A DNA stretch of 64,000 nt from Endomicrobium proavitum (GTDB lineage: Bacteria > Elusimicrobiota > Endomicrobiia > Endomicrobiales > Endomicrobiaceae): positions 62,001-126,000 of the forward strand of contig NZ_CP009498.1 in assembly GCF_001027545.1 (NCBI RefSeq), given 5' to 3'. Of the stretch, positions 10,756 to 25,079 are shown one piece after another; the stretch's first letter is position 1, and every line of letters begins with the position of its first letter. The position numbers and the translations under genes were made by a program. Below the pieces are notes generated by a model. That model ran no database searches, was not told the origin of the DNA, and was given only the letters and a program-made list of their open reading frames with translations.

Positions 10756-13700
10756 ATGAAAAAAACGTTTGTTTATTCTGTTTTTGTATTATCTTGTTTA
10801 TTTGTATTTATTGGCAATATCTATGGTCAGAGTTACCCTCGCATAGATAATAGCACCGGCGGGATAGTCAACGTAACTATCTCCACGACATTTGCGAATC
10901 TATCCGGCAGTGCTTATGGCGGCGCAGTGTATAATGATAATAACGGAAAAATAGATTTTCAAGCATCGGTGATTTTCTCTAGCAACAGTCCAACTGAAGA
11001 TGGCGGCGCAATTTATAACAAAGGAAATTCTTTGATTGAATTTCAAGGTCCAAGTGTGATTTTCGCGGGTAATAGCGGAACCAACAATGGTTATAACAAT
11101 GGAGGAGCTATTTATAGCGATAATTCTACTATTAATTTTAATAATACAATCGCGACTTTTATTGAGAATACCGCAGGAGATTATTGCAATGGCGGCGCTA
11201 TTTTGAACACATGGGGCTCTTTAACTAATTTTACTAATTCAGTCGTAACTTTTACTAATAACAGCACAGGTTTGGGTGGCTGGGGTTTTGGGGACGGCGG
11301 CGCTATTTCTAACCATATAAATTCTTCAGTTAGTTTTAATGGTTCAACCGTAACTTTTGTTGATAACACGGCAGGTTACGTTGGTGGAGCTATTTATAAC
11401 GAGGAATCTTTGATTGAATTTAGCAATTCAAACGTCCTTTTCGCTGATAACATGGCAAACGACTTCGGCGGAGCTATTTATAATAATATATCCATTGTTA
11501 GTTTTAATAGCGGTCTTGTGCATTTCAATAGTAACAGTGCGCAATATGGCGCCGCTATTATGAATGATGCATCTTTGATTACATTTAGCGGTTCAAGCGC
11601 GGCTTTCACAAATGGCACCGCAGATTATGATGCCGGCGCTATTTATAACATTGCTGATTCTACTGTTAGTTTTACCGGCGGGTTTGTGATTTTTGAGAAC
11701 AATAGCTCAAACAATGGCGATGGCGGCAGTATATTTAATGAAGGCGTGGTAGAAATAGCCGGAAGCATAATGAATTTTATAAACAACAAAGCAATAGCGG
11801 GAGCCGGAGGGGGAGTATTTGCGCAAGCAGGAAGCAGCATAACATTAGAAGGGTCAGGGAATTTCATAGGAAACGAAGCGGGAAGTTACGGAGGAGCAAT
11901 ATACGTGTCAAGCAGCGCAAGCGTAAGCATAATAGCAAACAACGGGGACATAGCGTTTGACAATAATAAAATGAACGGAAGCCCCAACGACATATACATA
12001 GCTGATTGGGGCGTGTTGAATTTAGGGGGAGCAAAAGATATATATTTTAAAAGCGGAATAGGGTTTAATACGACAACAAGCAGCATGAATATAAAAGTAA
12101 CAAAAGAGGGAAGCGGGGTAGTATATCTAGATTATAGTAACCCGTATTTAAGCAATTTAGAATTTAAAGAAGGAAGCATAGGTTTGCACAGCGCAGGAAG
12201 CAATAGCGTAGGAAACCAGTTGACAATAAACGAGTTAGACGCAAGCGCAAGCGGAAGTCAAAAGATATATATGAATGTAAAAATAAACGGACAAATAGAC
12301 GACGAGTCTGATAAAATAAGAATAATAGATAAATATGAAGGGAATATAGAAATAGCGGGCAAACAAGTGGGAACAATGGGAGCGCTGACAGCAGGGGACG
12401 GAATGAAAGCGGTAGAGTTCGGAGAGAACGCAGTAATAAACGGAAATTTTAGTTTAGAAGGCGGAAAAATAGATAACGGAGCATATGAAATAAAAATGTA
12501 TAAAGGGGACGACGCAACGTTTAGCGATTGGAGCGCGTCGGCAGACCCAAGGGATTATTATTTAAGAACAGCAGTAAGCGGAGCCGGAGGAAACCCAGTA
12601 CTAACGGACGTATATAAAACAATGGCAAACATGCCAATATTGAACGTGCTGTTGGCGCGAGCGGGAATGAACAGTTTAGAAAAACGCTTAGGTGACTTAA
12701 GAGGTTTTGGTGTTGGAATAGCCGGCGTGTGGAGCAGGGTATATGGAGTAAACGAGAAAGTAAAAGATATGGTGGACACAAATTTAAGTTTAATGGGAAT
12801 AGAAGCGGGTTTTGACGTTTTGGTAAATAGAGAGGAAAAGAATAAAATATATGTTGGAGGAATGTTTGGATATACGGGAGCATTGGAAGCCAAAACAAAG
12901 TTAGGGGTAGAAAACAGCAACGGAAACGGAAGGGGAGTAAGCGTAGGGTTGTATGGAAGCTGGATAGAAGAAAGCGGCTGGTTTGTAGATTTGGCAAGCA
13001 GATATTTCATAACAAGTTTTGATATGGCAAATTACAGTTCAATAGGCGATAAGTTGGAGTATAAACCTGAAAGGGACATATGGGCAACGGGAATAGAAGC
13101 GGGAAAAACGTTCAAGGTAGAGCAAGACGAGAATAAATATATAAGAATAGAACCGAAGTTAGAAGTGCAGTATCTAATGGCAGGCGACGATAAAACAACG
13201 GTAACCAACGGCGTAGGGAGTTTGGAGTATGGAAAAGCGGATTATGTAAAAGGAAAAGCGAATATATTGATAGGTTACGCAGTAATGAAAAACGGGGAAG
13301 TGAAGTATGAGCCGTATATAGAAATAGGATATAATCATGAGCTGGCAGGGAAAGGGAAAATGAGTTATAGCGGAGTAGGATATGAAAGCAACATAAGCGG
13401 AGGCGGTTTTGAAGGAGCGTTGGGAGTAGATGTAAAGGTGAGCGAAAATATATACATATACGGACAAGGAAATATAGAGAGCGGAGAAAAGTTTAGCGCA
13501 ATAGGAGCAAACGTAGGAGTAAGAATAGGAATAGGGGAAAAGGGAAAGGAAGCAGCAGTAGTAGAAACAAAAGCAAAGCCGGCGGTTGTTGAATCAACGG
13601 CAACGGCAGCGGTAGAAAAAGAAGATAAAGATATAGAAGAAGCCAAAGCAAGAAGGAAAGCGTCAATAAAAGCGTTTAGTATTAAGGCGGCAAGTTTTGG

Positions 13701-14004
13701 AGTAGGTAAATCAGAGTTAACGCCGAAAGCGAAAGAAGATATAAAAGAGATGGCGCAAGAAATAAAGAAGTATGAGTACACGTCGGTAACAATAGAAGGG
13801 CACACAGACGCAAGCGGAAAAGCGGAAGTAAATCAAGAGTTGTCTGAGAAAAGAGCAAAGAGCGTGAGAGAAGAGTTTGTAAAAGAAGGAATAGAAGAAA
13901 GCAAAGTGAGAATAATAGGATTTGGACACAGAATGTCGGTGGACACAAACGAAACCGCCGCAGGAAGAGCCAACAACAGAAGAGTAGAAATATTTGTAGA
14001 ATAA
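10756..14004 (+). CDS. Pmp-like beta-helix autotransporter with C-terminal OmpA domain
   Basis: The 1082-residue protein has a signal peptide (residues 1-25). A passenger at about 26-420 carries repeated GGAIYN-type and FxxN-type motifs as in chlamydial polymorphic membrane proteins, and ends in a module with NDIYI. The stretch YYLRTAVSG near residue 601 and GVWSRVYG near 657 mark the autotransporter junction. The beta-barrel spans about 640-927. A charged linker follows, then an OmpA-type peptidoglycan-binding domain at about 976-1082 with TIEGHTDASG, NQELSEKRAKSV and GRANNRRVEI. In a normal barrel the C-terminus faces the periplasm, so the OmpA domain could hold peptidoglycan while the passenger is outside (inference). 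From about nucleotide 11740 the codon choice changes to A-ending, purine-rich codons. Confidence 0.88.
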   Translation: MKKTFVYSVFVLSCLFVFIGNIYGQSYPRIDNSTGGIVNVTISTTFANLSGSAYGGAVYNDNNGKIDFQASVIFSSNSPTEDGGAIYNKGNSLIEFQGPSVIFAGNSGTNNGYNNGGAIYSDNSTINFNNTIATFIENTAGDYCNGGAILNTWGSLTNFTNSVVTFTNNSTGLGGWGFGDGGAISNHINSSVSFNGSTVTFVDNTAGYVGGAIYNEESLIEFSNSNVLFADNMANDFGGAIYNNISIVSFNSGLVHFNSNSAQYGAAIMNDASLITFSGSSAAFTNGTADYDAGAIYNIADSTVSFTGGFVIFENNSSNNGDGGSIFNEGVVEIAGSIMNFINNKAIAGAGGGVFAQAGSSITLEGSGNFIGNEAGSYGGAIYVSSSASVSIIANNGDIAFDNNKMNGSPNDIYIADWGVLNLGGAKDIYFKSGIGFNTTTSSMNIKVTKEGSGVVYLDYSNPYLSNLEFKEGSIGLHSAGSNSVGNQLTINELDASASGSQKIYMNVKINGQIDDESDKIRIIDKYEGNIEIAGKQVGTMGALTAGDGMKAVEFGENAVINGNFSLEGGKIDNGAYEIKMYKGDDATFSDWSASADPRDYYLRTAVSGAGGNPVLTDVYKTMANMPILNVLLARAGMNSLEKRLGDLRGFGVGIAGVWSRVYGVNEKVKDMVDTNLSLMGIEAGFDVLVNREEKNKIYVGGMFGYTGALEAKTKLGVENSNGNGRGVSVGLYGSWIEESGWFVDLASRYFITSFDMANYSSIGDKLEYKPERDIWATGIEAGKTFKVEQDENKYIRIEPKLEVQYLMAGDDKTTVTNGVGSLEYGKADYVKGKANILIGYAVMKNGEVKYEPYIEIGYNHELAGKGKMSYSGVGYESNISGGGFEGALGVDVKVSENIYIYGQGNIESGEKFSAIGANVGVRIGIGEKGKEAAVVETKAKPAVVESTATAAVEKEDKDIEEAKARRKASIKAFSIKAASFGVGKSELTPKAKEDIKEMAQEIKKYEYTSVTIEGHTDASGKAEVNQELSEKRAKSVREEFVKEGIEESKVRIIGFGHRMSVDTNETAAGRANNRRVEIFVE

Positions 14005-14340: not shown

Positions 14341-15591
14341 ATGAATATTTACATGCTGTTAATTGTTTCATTTATTTTTCTCATCTATGTTCTGCAGTCT
14401 GTTGCAGATATTTTAAACGTCAGAAACATATCTGCAAAAATTCCTAAAGAGTTTACCGGATACTTTAATAAAGACAGCTATGCCAAATCTCAAAAATATC
14501 TTAAAACAAAAACTAAGTTTTCTTTGCTGCAAGCTTCGTTTTTTACCGTTGTTGAGATAGTTTTTATATTTGCCGGCGGTTTTAATTTTGCAGATTTATT
14601 AGCGCGTTCTTTTGGTTTTGGGGAAATTGTTACGGGCTTAATATTTTTCGGACTTTTATTTTTTGCTCTTGAAATTTTAAAAATTCCGTTTGGCGCTTAC
14701 GATACTTTTGTAATAGAAGAAAAATTCGGATTTAATAAAACCAAAGCGGTTACTTTTATTGCGGATTTAATTAAAAACTGGGTTATAAGCGCGGTAATTT
14801 TAGGCGCAATTTTTATTGTTGTCTTGTGGTTTTTTACGGAGTTTGGAAAGTTTGCGTGGATTTATTCCTTTGCGGCTGTCGCCGTAATAGAGATGTTTTT
14901 TGCGTTTGTTTACCCAGTTGTAATAATGCCGTTGTTTAATAAATTTACTCCTTTGAAAAACGGAAAACTTAAAACCTCCGTTGAAAAATACGCGGCGAAA
15001 GAAAATTTTAAAATGAAAGGTCTTTTTACTATGGACAATTCGAAACGTTCCACAAAATCTAACGCTTTTTTTACCGGTTTCGGACGTTTTCGCAGAATAG
15101 TTTTATTTGATACTCTCATAAAAAAACATACGGTTGAAGAGCTTACAAGCGTGCTGGCTCACGAAATGGGGCATTTTAAATTGGGGCATATAAAGAAAGA
15201 TTTAATATACGGATTTATTTCTATGGCGTTTATGTTTTTTTTGCTTTCTGTTTTTATAAATTCGCCGTGGCTTTTTGAAGCTTTTAAAATGCAAACCGCG
15301 TCTGTTTACGCGGGCGTTGTGTTTTTCGGATTTTTATATATTCCGATATCTTTTATTATAGGTATTATCTCAAGCGCAATTTCCAGAAAGCATGAATACG
15401 AAGCTGACGCCTATGCCGTTAAAACTTATAAAAAGCCAAAAGCCATGATTGACGCTCTTAAAAAATTATCTGTGGATAACCTCTCAAATTTGTATCCTCA
15501 TAAATTTAAAGTGTTTTTGGAGTATTCTCACCCTCCTACGCTTGAAAGAATTGAGGCTATAAAGAAAATAAAAATTACGGAGAAAAAATGA
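14341..15591 (+). CDS. M48 family membrane metalloprotease (Ste24/CAAX protease 1-like)
   Basis: The 416-residue protein has several membrane helices in the N-terminal M48_N region (for example residues 3-22, 62-80, 95-115, 150-170 and 180-200). The zinc motif HEMGH lies at about 274-278 and the distal glutamate in EYEADAYA near 356. Two more helices lie between the two zinc sites. Ste24-type enzymes cleave membrane or lipid-modified substrates; bacterial members are often linked to envelope protein quality control. The stop overlaps the next ATG by four bases, so it is probably translated together with the autotransporter at 15588. Its native substrate is not deducible. Confidence 0.9.
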   Translation: MNIYMLLIVSFIFLIYVLQSVADILNVRNISAKIPKEFTGYFNKDSYAKSQKYLKTKTKFSLLQASFFTVVEIVFIFAGGFNFADLLARSFGFGEIVTGLIFFGLLFFALEILKIPFGAYDTFVIEEKFGFNKTKAVTFIADLIKNWVISAVILGAIFIVVLWFFTEFGKFAWIYSFAAVAVIEMFFAFVYPVVIMPLFNKFTPLKNGKLKTSVEKYAAKENFKMKGLFTMDNSKRSTKSNAFFTGFGRFRRIVLFDTLIKKHTVEELTSVLAHEMGHFKLGHIKKDLIYGFISMAFMFFLLSVFINSPWLFEAFKMQTASVYAGVVFFGFLYIPISFIIGIISSAISRKHEYEADAYAVKTYKKPKAMIDALKKLSVDNLSNLYPHKFKVFLEYSHPPTLERIEAIKKIKITEKK

Positions 15592-18500
15592 AAAAAATCC
15601 TGACAGCTTTTATTGCGGTTGTAATTTTTGTATGCACGGCTTGGGCAAGACAATATTTTGAAACCTATTCTCAAAGCAGCAATCCTCTTTTTTATTTTGA
15701 TATTGCCGATGCAGGAGATATGTTTTATGCAGGCAACGGATCTTTTGCGGACAGGGACGAGTTTTCAGCATGGACTCTTGGCGCGCGTCATATTTCCGTA
15801 ATAGAAGATGCGGCGGGTTACTGGTCGTGGCTGTTTGGAAGTTTGCCTGTAAATTCTAATGCCGTAACAGTTTCTATCGGCACGTACTTAATACAAAATG
15901 CCGATGCAATATCAACCATGGGCGCAAACGGCGGAGGCAAAACAACTTTGCTTGCCGCAATAATAGATAATGAATTTAGAGATTACTACAATACCGGTTT
16001 TGACGGAGGAGTAAAAGCTTACGGACAAATAAGAGTAGGTTTTGTCTCAGCTCCAAACATAGGGTATATGGGGAAACTTAAACTTTTGCCTGATAACGGA
16101 GCTTCGGCGCATATGTCAAGCGTAATTTTGCACGAACTTGGACACGCTCTTGGCATATCAAGCGATAAACTCTATTCCGGCAGCGATATGTTTTTTGCGG
16201 AGTATTCTTCCGGAACCGGAGCGCTTTCTCTTATGGATAATCACATTTACGACTCTACCGGAACAAAAGCGCAGATAGGAATGCAGATAATTTCAACCGC
16301 TGTTTACACAAGCGGCGCGTTTAATATAATACCGGTCGGCGACGCTTCTCTTGACGACCCGTCCGTAGGAGGATACGCTTTTTTTCAGGGGACAAACGTA
16401 AACGAAGTTATAGATCCGGACGATATGCACGACTACAACGATCTATATTTTGCCTTCAATAATCCTAATAAAATTTTTGGAATTCCGCTGCTTGGTTTAC
16501 GCGACGGCGCGGGAAACGCTTTTAGTCATACGGAACTTCGCAACAGCATGATGAGCCACCAGCAATACCGTAACTGGAGCACGTATATGGAAGCGGAACT
16601 TGCTCTTTTACAGGACATAGGCATTAATCTTGACAGAAAAAATTTTTACGGATATTCAATATACGCAGACAATGGTTTTTACGCAATTCCTTTGAATTTA
16701 ACTTATAGCGCAAGAAATTCTACCGGCGGTTATATTTCCGGGGAGTATAACTTTACGCCATACGCCGTAGGGCTGCATGTTTACGGAAGCTCAAACGCTT
16801 TTTTAACAATGACAAACGCAAGTATTTTAACGGAAGGTTTTTCTTCGGTTGGAATACGCGTGGACGGCGAGTGGAACTCTGTAAATATAGACGCCAATTC
16901 AATAGTTTCCGCTAACGGGGAATACGGCGCCGGCATTTTGGTAAGTTACGGCAAAAATCATAAAATATTCAGTTCGGGAACGGTTACGGCTTTAGGCGCA
17001 AACGGAATTGCCGCGCGTTTTGATTTCGGAGATAATATTCTTGGAAATTCCGTTGAATACAGAGGTTCGTTTATCAGAGGAAATACCGATGCTTACGGCG
17101 AGTGGGCGGCGGATAAAACTCTTTTGCCGGAGATTGACGGCGCGCTTGTAAATGCGTTTGCCGTTAGCGGCGCTCTTAAAGGAAATAAAGCCGCAATTTA
17201 TATTTCAAAAAATGCTTTTGTAGGGAAAATATTTATATTAAAAGGCGCAGAGCTTTCCGGCGATATAATTTCAGACTGGGATAAAAATGCGAATTTTATA
17301 CAGAATGCAACCCCAAATGCGCTTGTAACCGACCTTACTTTCGGGCTTTTGCTTGACAATGACGAAAATGCTTTTCCCGACATGTCTTTTAATATGTCTT
17401 ACAGCGGAAATATTGCTGCAAAAAAATCTTTAAACGTTTCGCATTTTGCGGGAAATCTTACTTTTGACGGAAAAATGACGGGGCTTAATCAGTTTTACGT
17501 TGGCGATAACGCTTCTTTTAATGTAGTCTCTTACTACGATTCGCCTGCGGTTATTGAAGCGGATAAAGTTATTTTTTCACCCGATGCCGTTTTAAATGTA
17601 AACGTTCAAAATTCTTTTGCGTATAAACTTAAAGCGCCGTTGCTTTTATTTGCCTCTCCGAACGTTACGTTGAATTCTTCGGATAATGTTTTTTTTAACG
17701 GAACGCTTAATACTCAGTCCGGTTTTTACGATAATTTAGACTCTCATTTTGCAATTGAAAACACTTCGGAAGGTTATGCTTTAAATGTTGTGTTTACGCC
17801 CACGGACGCAACGACGCTTTCCGCAGAAAGAACCGCCGCAAGCGCCGTCGGCGCGCCTTTGGCTGTTGCGGTAAACTCAAACGATTCAAATTCTATTTTT
17901 TCCGCGGCGTCTTTAGCGTTGAAAAATTTAGCGGGTGATTGGAACGTATGGTTTGCGCCTTCGTATAATTTTGCAAATTCAAACGACAGCGTAAATTATT
18001 CAATAAACTCTTTTTCATTGTCGGCGGGGCTTGATAAAAAGATTTCAAATTCTTTTGTTTTGGGAACGGGTTTAAGTTTTGCGCGTCCCGAGTATAAGTC
18101 GGACGCTGCAAATGTTCAAACTTCGGCTTTTTCCGCTTTTGTCTATGCGGGCGCAAATGTTTTTGAAAAGCTTGAAATAAATCTTTTCGCAAGCGGAACC
18201 GGAAATATTTATTCCCAAACAAGATGCGTCGGTGCGCAGAAATACGAAAGCGATTATAACGGCTCTGCGTATGATTTCGGCGTTAAAGTAAACCGCAGTT
18301 TTAAAGCGTCGGAAAAAATAACTTTAACTCCTTTTGCGTCTTACGAATATCTTGTTTTAAATGTTGCAGAATACAAAGAATCAAACGGAACTTACGCTTT
18401 AAAGTTTGACGATTCGTCTGAAAAAACATCAAGATTAAATACCGGAGCGCAGGCAGGTTTTGTAATTTCAAAAATTTTAACTTTAGACGCTAAAGTTTAT

Positions 18501-18734
18501 TATTCGGGACTTTTCGGCGACACTAAAGCGCAAACTCTTGTCAGCTTTATCGGCGACGAAAGCGTTTCAAACCTTACAACTTCAAACGCTTTAGATAAAC
18601 ATTCGCTTGGGGCAGGTTTAAAACTTTGGGCGCCTGTCGCGCAAAATTCAAAAATATCTTTCGGATATAATTTACTTATCGGCGAAAATACCGATAACCA
18701 CAGAATTGATTTGAATTTTGTTTTAGGCATATAA
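15588..18734 (+). CDS. Autotransporter with N-terminal metalloprotease-like domain
   Basis: The 1048-residue product has a signal peptide (1-20). A metallopeptidase-like domain at about 21-350 contains HELGHALGISSD at 182-193 and NSMMSHQQYRNW near 319, plausibly the Met-turn region of a metzincin. The classical third ligand position is Ser, with Asp next to it, so the zinc site may be modified or the third ligand may lie elsewhere. A segment of the form QDIGINLDRKNFYGYSIY then leads into a beta-helix-like passenger (about 350-770). The barrel covers about 780-1048 and ends in DLNFVLGI. It sits between M48 and M42 peptidase genes. A secreted, surface-attached protease is the likely role, but activity is unproven. 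Confidence 0.82.
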   Translation: MKKILTAFIAVVIFVCTAWARQYFETYSQSSNPLFYFDIADAGDMFYAGNGSFADRDEFSAWTLGARHISVIEDAAGYWSWLFGSLPVNSNAVTVSIGTYLIQNADAISTMGANGGGKTTLLAAIIDNEFRDYYNTGFDGGVKAYGQIRVGFVSAPNIGYMGKLKLLPDNGASAHMSSVILHELGHALGISSDKLYSGSDMFFAEYSSGTGALSLMDNHIYDSTGTKAQIGMQIISTAVYTSGAFNIIPVGDASLDDPSVGGYAFFQGTNVNEVIDPDDMHDYNDLYFAFNNPNKIFGIPLLGLRDGAGNAFSHTELRNSMMSHQQYRNWSTYMEAELALLQDIGINLDRKNFYGYSIYADNGFYAIPLNLTYSARNSTGGYISGEYNFTPYAVGLHVYGSSNAFLTMTNASILTEGFSSVGIRVDGEWNSVNIDANSIVSANGEYGAGILVSYGKNHKIFSSGTVTALGANGIAARFDFGDNILGNSVEYRGSFIRGNTDAYGEWAADKTLLPEIDGALVNAFAVSGALKGNKAAIYISKNAFVGKIFILKGAELSGDIISDWDKNANFIQNATPNALVTDLTFGLLLDNDENAFPDMSFNMSYSGNIAAKKSLNVSHFAGNLTFDGKMTGLNQFYVGDNASFNVVSYYDSPAVIEADKVIFSPDAVLNVNVQNSFAYKLKAPLLLFASPNVTLNSSDNVFFNGTLNTQSGFYDNLDSHFAIENTSEGYALNVVFTPTDATTLSAERTAASAVGAPLAVAVNSNDSNSIFSAASLALKNLAGDWNVWFAPSYNFANSNDSVNYSINSFSLSAGLDKKISNSFVLGTGLSFARPEYKSDAANVQTSAFSAFVYAGANVFEKLEINLFASGTGNIYSQTRCVGAQKYESDYNGSAYDFGVKVNRSFKASEKITLTPFASYEYLVLNVAEYKESNGTYALKFDDSSEKTSRLNTGAQAGFVISKILTLDAKVYYSGLFGDTKAQTLVSFIGDESVSNLTTSNALDKHSLGAGLKLWAPVAQNSKISFGYNLLIGENTDNHRIDLNFVLGI

Positions 18735-20950: not shown

Positions 20951-20962
20951 GATAGTTTTAAA

Positions 20963-21001
20963 AGAGCCGGCGAAAAATAATATTTTCGCCGGCTCTTTTT
21001 T
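20963..21001 (+). terminator. Intrinsic terminator after the zinc-ribbon gene
   Basis: A 14-bp perfect stem (AGAGCCGGCGAAAA with its complement) is followed by seven T. Confidence 0.9.
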
Positions 21002-21090: not shown

Positions 21091-24000
21091 ATGAAAAAAA
21101 TACTCTTCTATCTTACGGTTATGTGTGTTTTTGCCGTAAATGCTTACTCTCAAACGGTGAGTGTTTCAAGCTTTACCTACTTGCAGCAACTTTACCAGTC
21201 CGGCGGCTCTCAAGATATAAGTTTAACGTCAAACATATCGTTTGCAGATTGGCTTGGCGCTCCGGGGTTTTCCCTTTCAATGTCGGTTGACGGTCAGTCT
21301 TTATACTCTTTTGACGGTGCCGGCGCTTACGGCGGCTTTTACGGCGACCCTATGTCTATGGGAAGTTTTTCATTCAATAATACCGCGCTTAAAAATTTTG
21401 TAAGTTCAGGAGCGGTTTCGGTAACGTTCGGCACTTTCAATTCTTCAAACACCTCTTTTAGCAATAACGGCAACGTTTTAACCGGCGGAGCCGTTAGTAT
21501 AGCCTTATCAAACTCCCAATTAGACGGCAATATAGTTTTCAGTTCAAATTCCGCGGGCGCTTCGGGCGGAGCTTTTGCAGTGGTTGCAAGCGATGTTTTG
21601 TTTACGGGAAACTCTTATTTTTACGGCAACACGGCGGCTGTAGATGCCGGCGCGCTGCTTGTAACTTTTGACAGTTACGTTACATTTAACGGAAGTTCAA
21701 TTTATGAAAACAACGTTTCTACTTCCGCTTCCGGAGACGGTTACGGCGGAGCTGTGGCGGTTTTTGAATCTACCGCTATTTTTTCTTACGCGGAATTTAG
21801 TTCAAACCTTGCCGACAGAGGCGGGGCTATAGCCGTTATAGACGGAGATTTGCCCGGCAGCGGTTCTTATGTTTCTTTCGGCGACGTAATTTTTAACGGC
21901 AATACGGCCACGTCCATAGGCGGCGCGGTATATGCCGACGGGTCGGTAATAGATTTTAACGGCGATGCGCTGTTTCAAGATAACAATGCTCAGTCCGGCG
22001 GAGCCGTGCGCGCCGATATTTCCGTTGTAAACTTCAACGGCGACTCCGTTGCGTTTTCTTCAAACCACGCAACATATAACCCCGGCGGAGCATTTTACCT
22101 TTTCAGATCTACCGTAAATTTTAATTCCGCATATTCTTCTTTTTCTTACAACGCTTCAAATTTTAACGGCGGCGCAATATTTGCAAACTATAAATCTTCA
22201 GTCCTTTTTTCTACGGGCGCCGCTCTTTTTGAAGGAAACAGAGCTTCCCTTAACGGCGGCGCTGTTTACGCGCTTTCTTCAAATGTAGAATTTCAAAATG
22301 TAAGTTTTATAAATAACACGGCGCAGAGCGGTTTGGGCGGAGCCGTTTATATAGCGGGTACCGCCGCAAGCGTTGCCACGGCAACGTTTAGAACTTCCGT
22401 TCAAGGCTTAAGTTCTTCTACGGTTTTTAGCGGAAACGCCGCAGGCTCGTCGGGTAACGGAATGTATATAGGCGATTATTCAAAAGTTTATTTTATAACG
22501 GATTCGGGCGCAAGCGTGGAGATGTATGATAACATAGCTTCCGGCGCAGGCGTAACCGGTTCAAAAATTTATATTTCCGGCGCGGGATATTTTAACCTTT
22601 ACGCAAACTCGCTTTCAAATAAAGCGGATGTTGAATTATCCGGAAATCTTAATTTTAAAAACGGAGCAGCTCTCGGCGCGGGAATGCTTACGATTAATCC
22701 GGGTTCTTTTATAGACATGCTTGACGGCGCGACAAATTCAATAAACGCGGCTTATATCAACAATGCGGGAAGAGTGGATTTAGAAACTTTTGATACGGTA
22801 AACGATTCTTTAAACTCTTCCGGCGCTCTTGTTTTAGACGCGGCAAACAGCGTTTTAAATGTAACCATTCAAAATTATACGCCGCAAAAAAGAATATACA
22901 AACTTTTCAGTTACGGTTCTCTTGCGGGACAGTTTAACAGCGTAAATATCCTCGGAGTGGCGCTGCTGCCGTCGGATTATCAAATATTATACGGAACCGG
23001 TTACGACAGTTTTATCACGCTTATATTAAACGGAGATACGCAGAGCAATTTTAGCGCTATAACGGGGCTTACTTTTAACCAAAGCGAAACGGCGAAAATT
23101 TTTGACAATGTTGCGCAAACAGCTTCTGGAGATTTGTTAGATGTAATTTTGGAAGTTCAGCTTTTAAGCAATACCGCCTTGCAGAAAGACGCTTTAGGTC
23201 AGAGCGCGGGATATTTTCTTGCAAACGTTTTAAGAAACGCCGCTATAGAATCTTCGCACAAAGACATATACGATAAAATGAACGGTCGCGCAACTTCATC
23301 TCTTGTGTCCGGAATATGGGCGCAGGCAATAGGCGGCAACGTTTCCCGCAAAGGCGATGAGAATTCAATAAATGAATTCCGCAGCAACTCTTCCGGCGCA
23401 ATGATAGGTTATGACAAATTTGATTATAATACAAACGTTGTTTTCGGACTTTTCGGAAAATATAAAAACAGCGATATAAAGCAAGATCCGCAAAATTCTG
23501 CCGCGGCAATGAATGCCGGCGCAGGAATTTACGTAGGCTGGATAAGCGAATATGTGGACATTAAAGTTTTGGCTGAAGGCGGTTTTGACAACTATGACAC
23601 ATCAAGATATATTCCGTTTGTAAACAGAACCGCAACGGCAAAATTCAACGGGCTAAACTACGGCGGAAACGTTGAAGCTGCCGCTAAAATTCCGTTAATC
23701 GGCAATTTTAAAATAAGACCTTATGCGGGATTTGAAGCTAAAAATTCAAGCTATGAAGATTTTAAAGAAAGCGGCGCGGGAAGTTTAAATTTAAATGTTA
23801 AAGGCGGAAACTATTTCAGAAGCGCAGCTCGCGGCGGAATAGGTTTTATTCTTGACAATAAAAATTTTAGTTTCTATGTTCAAGGAGAAGGAAAATATTT
23901 AACCTCCGGCGATATCAGCGAAATAGAAAGCGCATTTGACGGCGCAAAATCTTTATCGTTTAAAACGCGCGGATATACGGAAAACAAATTTAGTTACGGC

Positions 24001-25017
24001 GCGGGCGTTGGCGTGTCGCTTGCGTTTTCTCAATACTTTAGACTATTCGCAAACGGAAATTATTATTCCGGTGCGGATAAATTTGAAGATTTATACGCAA
24101 ACGCAGGCATAAGAATTGCTTTTGGAGACTCTGCGCCTGTTATTGAAAAAGCGGGCAGCGCAGACGCAAAACCTGCGGAAAAATCTATGCCTTTAACCTC
24201 AAACGAACCGCTTGAAACAAGCGAAGTTGCTTATCAGCCGCCTGTGGATGCGCAAAATTATGCTCCTAAAAATCCGCAGCTGCAAGTTCCTGAAACTACG
24301 CCTCAAGACGTTAGCGCCGCAGAACAGATTACGGATTTGAATGCCGATACTGCTGCGCCTGAAGACGTTCCTCAAGTTTCTATAGAGAGCGCTTTAGACG
24401 CTGTTTCTTCGGATGCGGATAAACTTGCCGCCGACCGGAATCAGCTTCAAAATATTTTGCCGCCAAATGCGGTTCCTGTAACGGATGCGCCGGTTGCGCA
24501 GCCTGTTGCCGAGGATGTTCCTGAAGCTGCGGCTGAAGAAGTTCCGTCGGTGCGTCCGTCTATAATTCCTGATAATGCGGTTGCTGTAACTCAAGCGCAG
24601 CCTGCGGCTTTTATTGCTGCTGCTGAAGTTTCGGCGCCGGCGCCTGTTGTTGTGGAAGAACCTGTCGCAAAAACTCCGGCTGTAGTTAAACCGGCTGCGG
24701 CTCCAAAGAAAGCTGCGGCTGTAAAGCCTGCTGCAAAAAAAGCTAAAACAACTGCGGTGAAATCTAAAGCTGCAGCTAACAATAAGAAAGCCGCAACTGC
24801 GGTTAAAAAAGCTGCGCCTAAAAAGGCGGCTGTAGCGGCGGTAAAAAAAGCTCCCGCAAAAAAAGCGGCGGTACAACAAGCTGCGGTAAAAAAGAAATCG
24901 GCGGTCAAAACTAAAGTATCTCCGGCAAAAGCGGCTGCAAAAACCGTAAAGCCGGCGGCTAAAAAAGCTCCCGCAAAAAAAGCTTCAGCCAAGAGAGCCG
25001 TAAAAAAGAAAATTTAA
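21091..25017 (+). CDS. Pmp-like autotransporter with acidic linker and histone-H1-like tail
   Basis: The 1308-residue protein has a signal peptide (1-21) and a beta-helix passenger with repeated GGAVYA/GGAIFA and FxxN motifs (about 120-460). A linker with QSNFSAITGL near 651 leads to a beta-barrel at about 740-1012 (GIWAQAIGG to AGIRIAFGD). The barrel shares RPYxGxEAKN and GNYFRSAARxG with the giant protein at 50128. The reading frame continues about 296 residues past the barrel. First comes an acidic Ala/Pro/Glu-rich part (1013-1195), then a tail of KKAA/PAKKA repeats ending in AVKKKI. The last 108 residues contain 34 lysines. The tail should lie in the periplasm if the barrel inserts normally. 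It could bind peptidoglycan, teichoic-like polymers or nucleic acid; none is shown. Confidence 0.87.
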   Translation: MKKILFYLTVMCVFAVNAYSQTVSVSSFTYLQQLYQSGGSQDISLTSNISFADWLGAPGFSLSMSVDGQSLYSFDGAGAYGGFYGDPMSMGSFSFNNTALKNFVSSGAVSVTFGTFNSSNTSFSNNGNVLTGGAVSIALSNSQLDGNIVFSSNSAGASGGAFAVVASDVLFTGNSYFYGNTAAVDAGALLVTFDSYVTFNGSSIYENNVSTSASGDGYGGAVAVFESTAIFSYAEFSSNLADRGGAIAVIDGDLPGSGSYVSFGDVIFNGNTATSIGGAVYADGSVIDFNGDALFQDNNAQSGGAVRADISVVNFNGDSVAFSSNHATYNPGGAFYLFRSTVNFNSAYSSFSYNASNFNGGAIFANYKSSVLFSTGAALFEGNRASLNGGAVYALSSNVEFQNVSFINNTAQSGLGGAVYIAGTAASVATATFRTSVQGLSSSTVFSGNAAGSSGNGMYIGDYSKVYFITDSGASVEMYDNIASGAGVTGSKIYISGAGYFNLYANSLSNKADVELSGNLNFKNGAALGAGMLTINPGSFIDMLDGATNSINAAYINNAGRVDLETFDTVNDSLNSSGALVLDAANSVLNVTIQNYTPQKRIYKLFSYGSLAGQFNSVNILGVALLPSDYQILYGTGYDSFITLILNGDTQSNFSAITGLTFNQSETAKIFDNVAQTASGDLLDVILEVQLLSNTALQKDALGQSAGYFLANVLRNAAIESSHKDIYDKMNGRATSSLVSGIWAQAIGGNVSRKGDENSINEFRSNSSGAMIGYDKFDYNTNVVFGLFGKYKNSDIKQDPQNSAAAMNAGAGIYVGWISEYVDIKVLAEGGFDNYDTSRYIPFVNRTATAKFNGLNYGGNVEAAAKIPLIGNFKIRPYAGFEAKNSSYEDFKESGAGSLNLNVKGGNYFRSAARGGIGFILDNKNFSFYVQGEGKYLTSGDISEIESAFDGAKSLSFKTRGYTENKFSYGAGVGVSLAFSQYFRLFANGNYYSGADKFEDLYANAGIRIAFGDSAPVIEKAGSADAKPAEKSMPLTSNEPLETSEVAYQPPVDAQNYAPKNPQLQVPETTPQDVSAAEQITDLNADTAAPEDVPQVSIESALDAVSSDADKLAADRNQLQNILPPNAVPVTDAPVAQPVAEDVPEAAAEEVPSVRPSIIPDNAVAVTQAQPAAFIAAAEVSAPAPVVVEEPVAKTPAVVKPAAAPKKAAAVKPAAKKAKTTAVKSKAAANNKKAATAVKKAAPKKAAVAAVKKAPAKKAAVQQAAVKKKSAVKTKVSPAKAAAKTVKPAAKKAPAKKASAKRAVKKKI

Positions 25018-25032
25018 CAATAAAATATAAAT

Positions 25033-25074
25033 AAAAAAAGAGCCGGCTTCTTTTAAGAAGCCGGCTCTTTTTTT
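25033..25074. terminator. Bidirectional terminator between convergent genes
   Basis: An 18-bp perfect inverted repeat around TTTTAA, with A-rich and T-rich flanks, serves both the autotransporter (+) and typA (-), whose stop lies six bases away. Confidence 0.92.
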
Positions 25075-25079
25075 ATTTT

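Follow-up and report, generated by a model that had tools for sequence, protein, structure and literature searches.

A lysine-rich tail behind an autotransporter barrel in Endomicrobium proavitum and its possible role as a periplasmic anchor

In diderm bacteria the outer membrane is held to the cell wall either by folded domains (OmpA, LysM, SLH) or by covalent links. In the EstA/NalP class of autotransporter barrels the solved topology places the C-terminus on the periplasmic side, and a helix leading into the pore is usual in autotransporters. Lysine-rich proteins of the Hc1 and AlgP type are cytoplasmic DNA-binding proteins. The barrel adhesin YeeJ is anchored to the wall through a periplasmic LysM domain (PMC5595812), and the KKAAPA/KKAAAKK repeats of HBHA bind the anionic polysaccharide heparan sulfate outside the cell (PMC3293801); HBHA also binds DNA (PMC10665949). 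Endomicrobium proavitum Rsa215 is a free-living termite-gut elusimicrobium with a finished, PacBio-sequenced chromosome of 1,588,979 bases (PMC4505116). We describe here an autotransporter gene within a 64,000-nucleotide stretch of this chromosome (the window), the product of which continues well beyond its barrel into a lysine-rich tail. The features of the gene and its surroundings are as follows.

13696–13980, plus strand: OmpA domain behind the barrel of the neighbour gene 10756–14004 (PF00691, E 2.3e-22, residues 981–1075)
20960–20999, plus strand: terminator upstream of ORF 21091–25017 (17-pair stem, then a T run)
21091–25017, plus strand: PMP-type autotransporter with C-terminal lysine-rich tail, 1308 aa (ORF; Pfam PF03797 and PF02415; NCBIfam POMP repeat)
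21091–21150, plus strand: Sec signal peptide MKKILFYLTVMCVFAVNAYS (sequence read by eye)
21151–23295, plus strand: passenger, with PMP repeats and a linker helix into the barrel (PF02415, TIGR01376; AlphaFold2 helices before strand 1)
23296–24126, plus strand: 12-strand autotransporter barrel, residues 736–1012 (PF03797; pLDDT 94.0; EstA/NalP structure matches)
24127–24693, plus strand: acidic Ala/Pro/Val/Glu-rich linker, residues 1013–1201, net −21 (charge count; mostly pLDDT <50)
24382–24456, plus strand: sole predicted helix of the linker, residues 1098–1122, pLDDT about 70 (AlphaFold2)
24694–25014, plus strand: polycationic Lys/Ala tail, residues 1202–1308, net +35 (charge count, BLAST, AlphaFold2 disorder)
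25031–25076, both strands: strong two-way terminator between ORF 21091–25017 and the convergent typA (20-pair stem)

The terminator at 20960–20999 suggests that ORF 21091–25017 is probably transcribed alone. Its product has both the barrel domain and the PMP repeats of type Va/PMP autotransporters: PF03797 matches residues 742–989 (E 1.2e-36, profile positions 1–254 of 255), PF02415 matches in the passenger (E 1.7e-8), and TIGR01376 is found in five stretches (NCBIfam). The N-terminus is, by eye, a typical Sec signal. In the AlphaFold2 model the barrel is closed, with a mean pLDDT of 94, and the final strand stops at residue 1011; the nearest solved structures are full-length EstA (TM 0.89), AaaA and NalP (TM 0.80). 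Modelling of residues 691–1308 gives helices ahead of strand 1, in keeping with the helix that usually enters the pore in autotransporters, then the barrel and, behind it, an extension that lacks order apart from helix 1098–1122. As modelled, no part of the barrel is missing, and it belongs to the EstA/NalP class.

The first-pass annotation had reported an extension of about 296 residues past the barrel, an acidic linker giving way to a basic tail, and 34 lysines in the last 108 residues, and all three hold. The extension comprises residues 1013–1308 and begins at position 24127; the lysine count is exact, and the final 108 residues also contain 40 alanines and one arginine and lack acidic residues. 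Over 60-residue stretches of the entire protein, net charge is highest in the tail (+21) and lowest in the linker (−11). KKA occurs nine times in the tail, KKAA five, AKKA four, and PAKKA and VKKA twice each. The binomial probability of 34 lysines in 108 residues is about 1e-24 at the protein's own lysine rate and 7e-10 at 10% lysine. The codons are mixed (Lys AAA 26, AAG 8; Ala GCT 16, GCG 14, GCA 7, GCC 3), and tandem near-repeats of 15 to 39 bases are just 71–83% alike, so the tail did not arise by recent slippage. Two antisense ORFs overlie it (24394–24879 and 24591–24992) and look like artefacts of composition. An origin of the tail as a copy of another part of the genome was rejected: BLAST finds no second copy in E. 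proavitum, although with composition correction weak kin could be hidden, and DNA comparison gives no convincing match to the segments behind the barrels of sister genes. The idea that the linker descends from those of sister proteins was also set aside; a PAPVVVE stretch is common to both, but in comparison with shuffled sequences it does not reach significance (at best 17 of 300).

A frameshift through sequencing error at the barrel end, fusing two genes, had been raised as an objection to reading barrel and tail as one protein. Only PacBio reads went into the assembly (PMC4505116), and the tail contains runs of A; both could favour such an error. However, codon-usage log-odds score the same frame best in every 153-base block from the barrel through linker and tail to the stop. 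Seven possible start codons lie in the linker and early tail and none is preceded by a ribosome-binding site, so that a second gene would have no start signal; a terminator follows the stop, and family members commonly extend beyond the barrel. The continuous codon frame, the absent internal starts and the terminator make a frameshift or gene fusion unlikely, and the first two rule it out as far as the sequence allows; we consider it scarcely credible.

The same absence of start signals bears on the proposal that the tail holds DNA. It might do so in the periplasm, with DNA that is extracellular or has been taken up, or an internal start might yield a histone-like protein. DNA binding is known for the AKKA/PAKKA repeats of HupB and HBHA, the latter of which doubles as a surface adhesin (PMC10665949). 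Against this, the protein has an apparent signal peptide and a barrel, which would export it, the start codons of the linker lack ribosome-binding sites, and a Pfam/NCBIfam scan of the tail returns nothing above cut-off. The Hc1 family (PF07432) is absent from the E. proavitum genome by profile search. Membership of the tail in a histone or Hc1 family was thus rejected; the histone resemblance is compositional only, the histone reading of the first-pass annotation is not supported, and DNA binding is very improbable.

Among its sister proteins, the usual occupant of the place behind the barrel is an OmpA domain. Pfam profiles identify 23 PF03797 barrels in the E. proavitum genome, along with 21 OmpA domains above cut-off, and when genome coordinates of the two are paired, 13 of the 23 autotransporter barrels have an in-frame OmpA domain downstream. 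The in-frame barrel and OmpA arrangement is thus the norm in this genome, gene 10756–14004 included. Two further barrels are directly followed by a separate OmpA gene, and others stop with the barrel or shortly behind it, or bear short tails such as NDLPDELQNALR. The lysine tail is found on one of the 23, that of ORF 21091–25017, and has no PF00691 match at E up to 1, whereas the sister proteins match strongly. Across 57 distinct barrels sampled from E. proavitum and related genomes, 31 have OmpA, at least 13 have nothing, and the rest have short, charged or lysine-rich extensions; additional C-termini from relatives include TPR-like and long K/E coiled-coil extensions. A maximum-likelihood tree built from 55 barrels requires at least 18 changes of the module behind the barrel, OmpA being the commonest, and the near-identical E. 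proavitum barrels L006, L010 and L168 bear different modules, indicating that exchange is recent and frequent. The segment behind the barrel is an exchangeable, probably periplasmic module in this autotransporter family.

Several other endings were seen. Two giant autotransporters, L195 and L200 (G000:C1 near 348400–349253 and 791959–792900), with open frames of 7051 and 8163 aa, both terminate in a 74-residue KVYVVTYNDKNFYFRDTQ module. Behind each lies a small, separate gene, the apparently exported product of which carries the OmpA domain, as if the anchor had turned into a second protein. In the E. proavitum barrels L007, L012, L013 and L015 the C-terminus is a conserved short motif such as NDMPDDLQNALR, preceded in L007 by YNDDDLSDELRNALSG repeats; L026, from another genus, has the related ending DLQRALKP. 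Three related barrels (L080, L097 and L107) have an extension of about 240–330 residues with a TPR-like repeat. One 1152-residue autotransporter gene is present twice, at G000:C1:157168–160002 and 638234–641068, in opposite orientations with equal match scores and different flanks.

The relationship to OmpA is also seen at the locus itself. In three related genomes (G015, G027 and G032) the gene convergent with typA encodes a barrel and OmpA protein, and Pfam confirms PF00691 in those of G027 and G032. Synteny with the three covers the typA side only, and their barrels are not the closest by sequence, so an exchange of OmpA for the lysine tail at this locus is likely and not proven. The parallel drawn earlier with the OmpA anchor of gene 10756 stands, with OmpA the usual module in the genome (13 of 23) and the sample (31 of 57) and the occupant of the typA locus in relatives.

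Lysine tails recur elsewhere in Endomicrobiaceae. Ranked by net charge over 60 residues behind the barrel, ORF 21091–25017 is first (+21), followed by L167 of genome G014 (+20), and L171/L166 of G018 (+16) also rank high; a K/E-rich coiled coil equals them at +16 but is of mixed charge. L167 comprises barrel, OmpA and lysine tail (VKPAAKVKKTSSVKKTASAKTATTKRAAAK, ending KKKIKK), and L166 signal, barrel and lysine tail without OmpA. L166 and L167 group as sisters (99/90) on the 55-barrel tree, a long way from ORF 21091–25017, which itself has no firm placement. On this tree lysine tails were gained at least twice, in ORF 21091–25017 and in the L166/L167 lineage, and comparison of the two sisters indicates that the tail both joins and replaces OmpA. 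A tail-profile search of 295 genomes of the phylum reported only ORF 21091–25017 and G018, which is a lower bound because G014 was missed although its tail was in the model. A scan of named genomes with a 6-row barrel alignment yielded 19 termite-gut Endomicrobia loci, and a PAKKA tail was present at none of these. The search for such proteins in related genomes that had been suggested thus yielded two, and the idea that lysine tails are not known on outer-membrane barrels is too strong in view of them, though the open-access literature searched contains no precedent for lysine tails behind autotransporter barrels. Lysine tails behind barrels are real and recur, but they are a rare form of an architecture already known, in which a barrel is joined to a periplasmic anchor.

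Next to the G018 barrel and lysine-tail gene is a homologue (L166:1–1689) of another gene of the window, 15588–18734, to which it is 42% identical. Gene 15588–18734 encodes an autotransporter with a metalloprotease-like HELGHALGI motif in its passenger and overlaps a CAAX/M48 protease gene (14341–15591) by 4 bases.

Lys/Ala/Pro-rich stretches are easily gained and may be mere spacers, and the tail could be such a low-complexity segment, with little or no specific binding and retained because it is harmless. It is disordered in the AlphaFold2 model, no other barrel of the genome has it, the extension varies among relatives, and 13 of the 57 manage without any. A spacer does not readily account for the sharp switch from acidic to basic, to a net +35 within 107 residues and with acidic residues lacking from the last 108, nor for recurrence in a distant lineage, and the mixed codons and poor DNA repeat identity speak against fresh slippage. 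We consider it unlikely that the tail is simply a spacer.

We favour the reading that the tail is an unstructured electrostatic anchor in the periplasm, attaching to peptidoglycan or another anionic envelope polymer and replacing OmpA, with a probability of roughly 0.55. Its periplasmic position, proposed from the outset, is well supported by analogy with the solved topology of the EstA/NalP class, provided that the barrel inserts like other autotransporters, and would put the tail at the site of the OmpA domain in sister proteins. The acidic disordered linker would reach away from the outer membrane, and the terminal disordered polycation, multivalent and of low specificity, could interact weakly and at many points, through its charge, with an anionic polymer, for which the peptidoglycan sacculus is the likeliest candidate. 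Barrel and displayed passenger would thereby be held to the cell wall, as by the OmpA domain in sister proteins. Anchoring is the function we infer, and peptidoglycan is the most likely ligand since its synthesis is retained by most Endomicrobiaceae (PMC11257099) and the alternative module belongs to a peptidoglycan-binding family. No match to the YkuD L,D-transpeptidase (PF03734) was found in the E. proavitum genome, with controls matched in 6 of 14 genomes; a covalent tether of the Lpp/BbpA type was rejected on this ground, and a non-covalent tether fits better than a link of the Braun-lipoprotein type. An anchor is not obligatory in the family, as at least 13 of the 57 sampled barrels end at the barrel.

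A periplasmic polycation could have another partner, be it an acidic protein of the periplasm, anionic inner-membrane lipids or the phosphates of lipid A on the inner leaflet, and could help the barrel to assemble or retain the passenger until export instead of tethering to the wall. The anatomy would be identical to that of an anchor and charge alone does not select the ligand; moreover, L167 of G014 has the tail besides OmpA, so the tail may do something that OmpA does not. However, the module that recurs as the alternative at this place is the peptidoglycan-binding OmpA domain, and we think another partner quite unlikely. If the wall anchor is correct, the tail might represent a distinct kind, a charge-only polycation tether to the sacculus gained repeatedly in Endomicrobia and substituting for or supplementing OmpA; this broader proposal is possible and we hold it tentatively. 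If true, a charge-only autotransporter tether that evolved by module exchange in the absence of YkuD would be a simpler solution. The near-identical barrels with different periplasmic modules offer a natural series for asking why autotransporters are anchored.

Compared with known systems, ORF 21091–25017 is like the Chlamydia-type Pmp/type Va autotransporters (PF02415, PF03797) in its apparent signal peptide, PMP-repeat passenger and 12-strand barrel, but classical members stop at the last barrel strand whereas this protein runs on for 296 residues. It shares with OmpA-family proteins and its barrel and OmpA sisters the order of barrel, linker and periplasmic C-terminal module, with a disordered polycation instead of a folded peptidoglycan-binding domain. 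The inverse autotransporters YeeJ and intimin resemble the proposed anchor in that a barrel adhesin is tethered to peptidoglycan by a periplasmic segment; theirs, however, is a folded LysM domain, N-terminal to a barrel of another family. Histone H1-like Hc1 and AlgP resemble the tail in composition only, with no family match. Mycobacterial HBHA and HupB have C-terminal disordered Lys/Ala/Pro repeats (AKKA/PAKKA) like those of the tail, and in HBHA and HupB these bind polyanions; they lack a barrel, and the kinship is shown in composition only. KKA/PAKKA repeats comparable to the KKAAPA/KKAAAKK type of HBHA were counted in the tail, and while HBHA also acts outside the cytoplasm, the tail is predicted to face the periplasm and not the surface.
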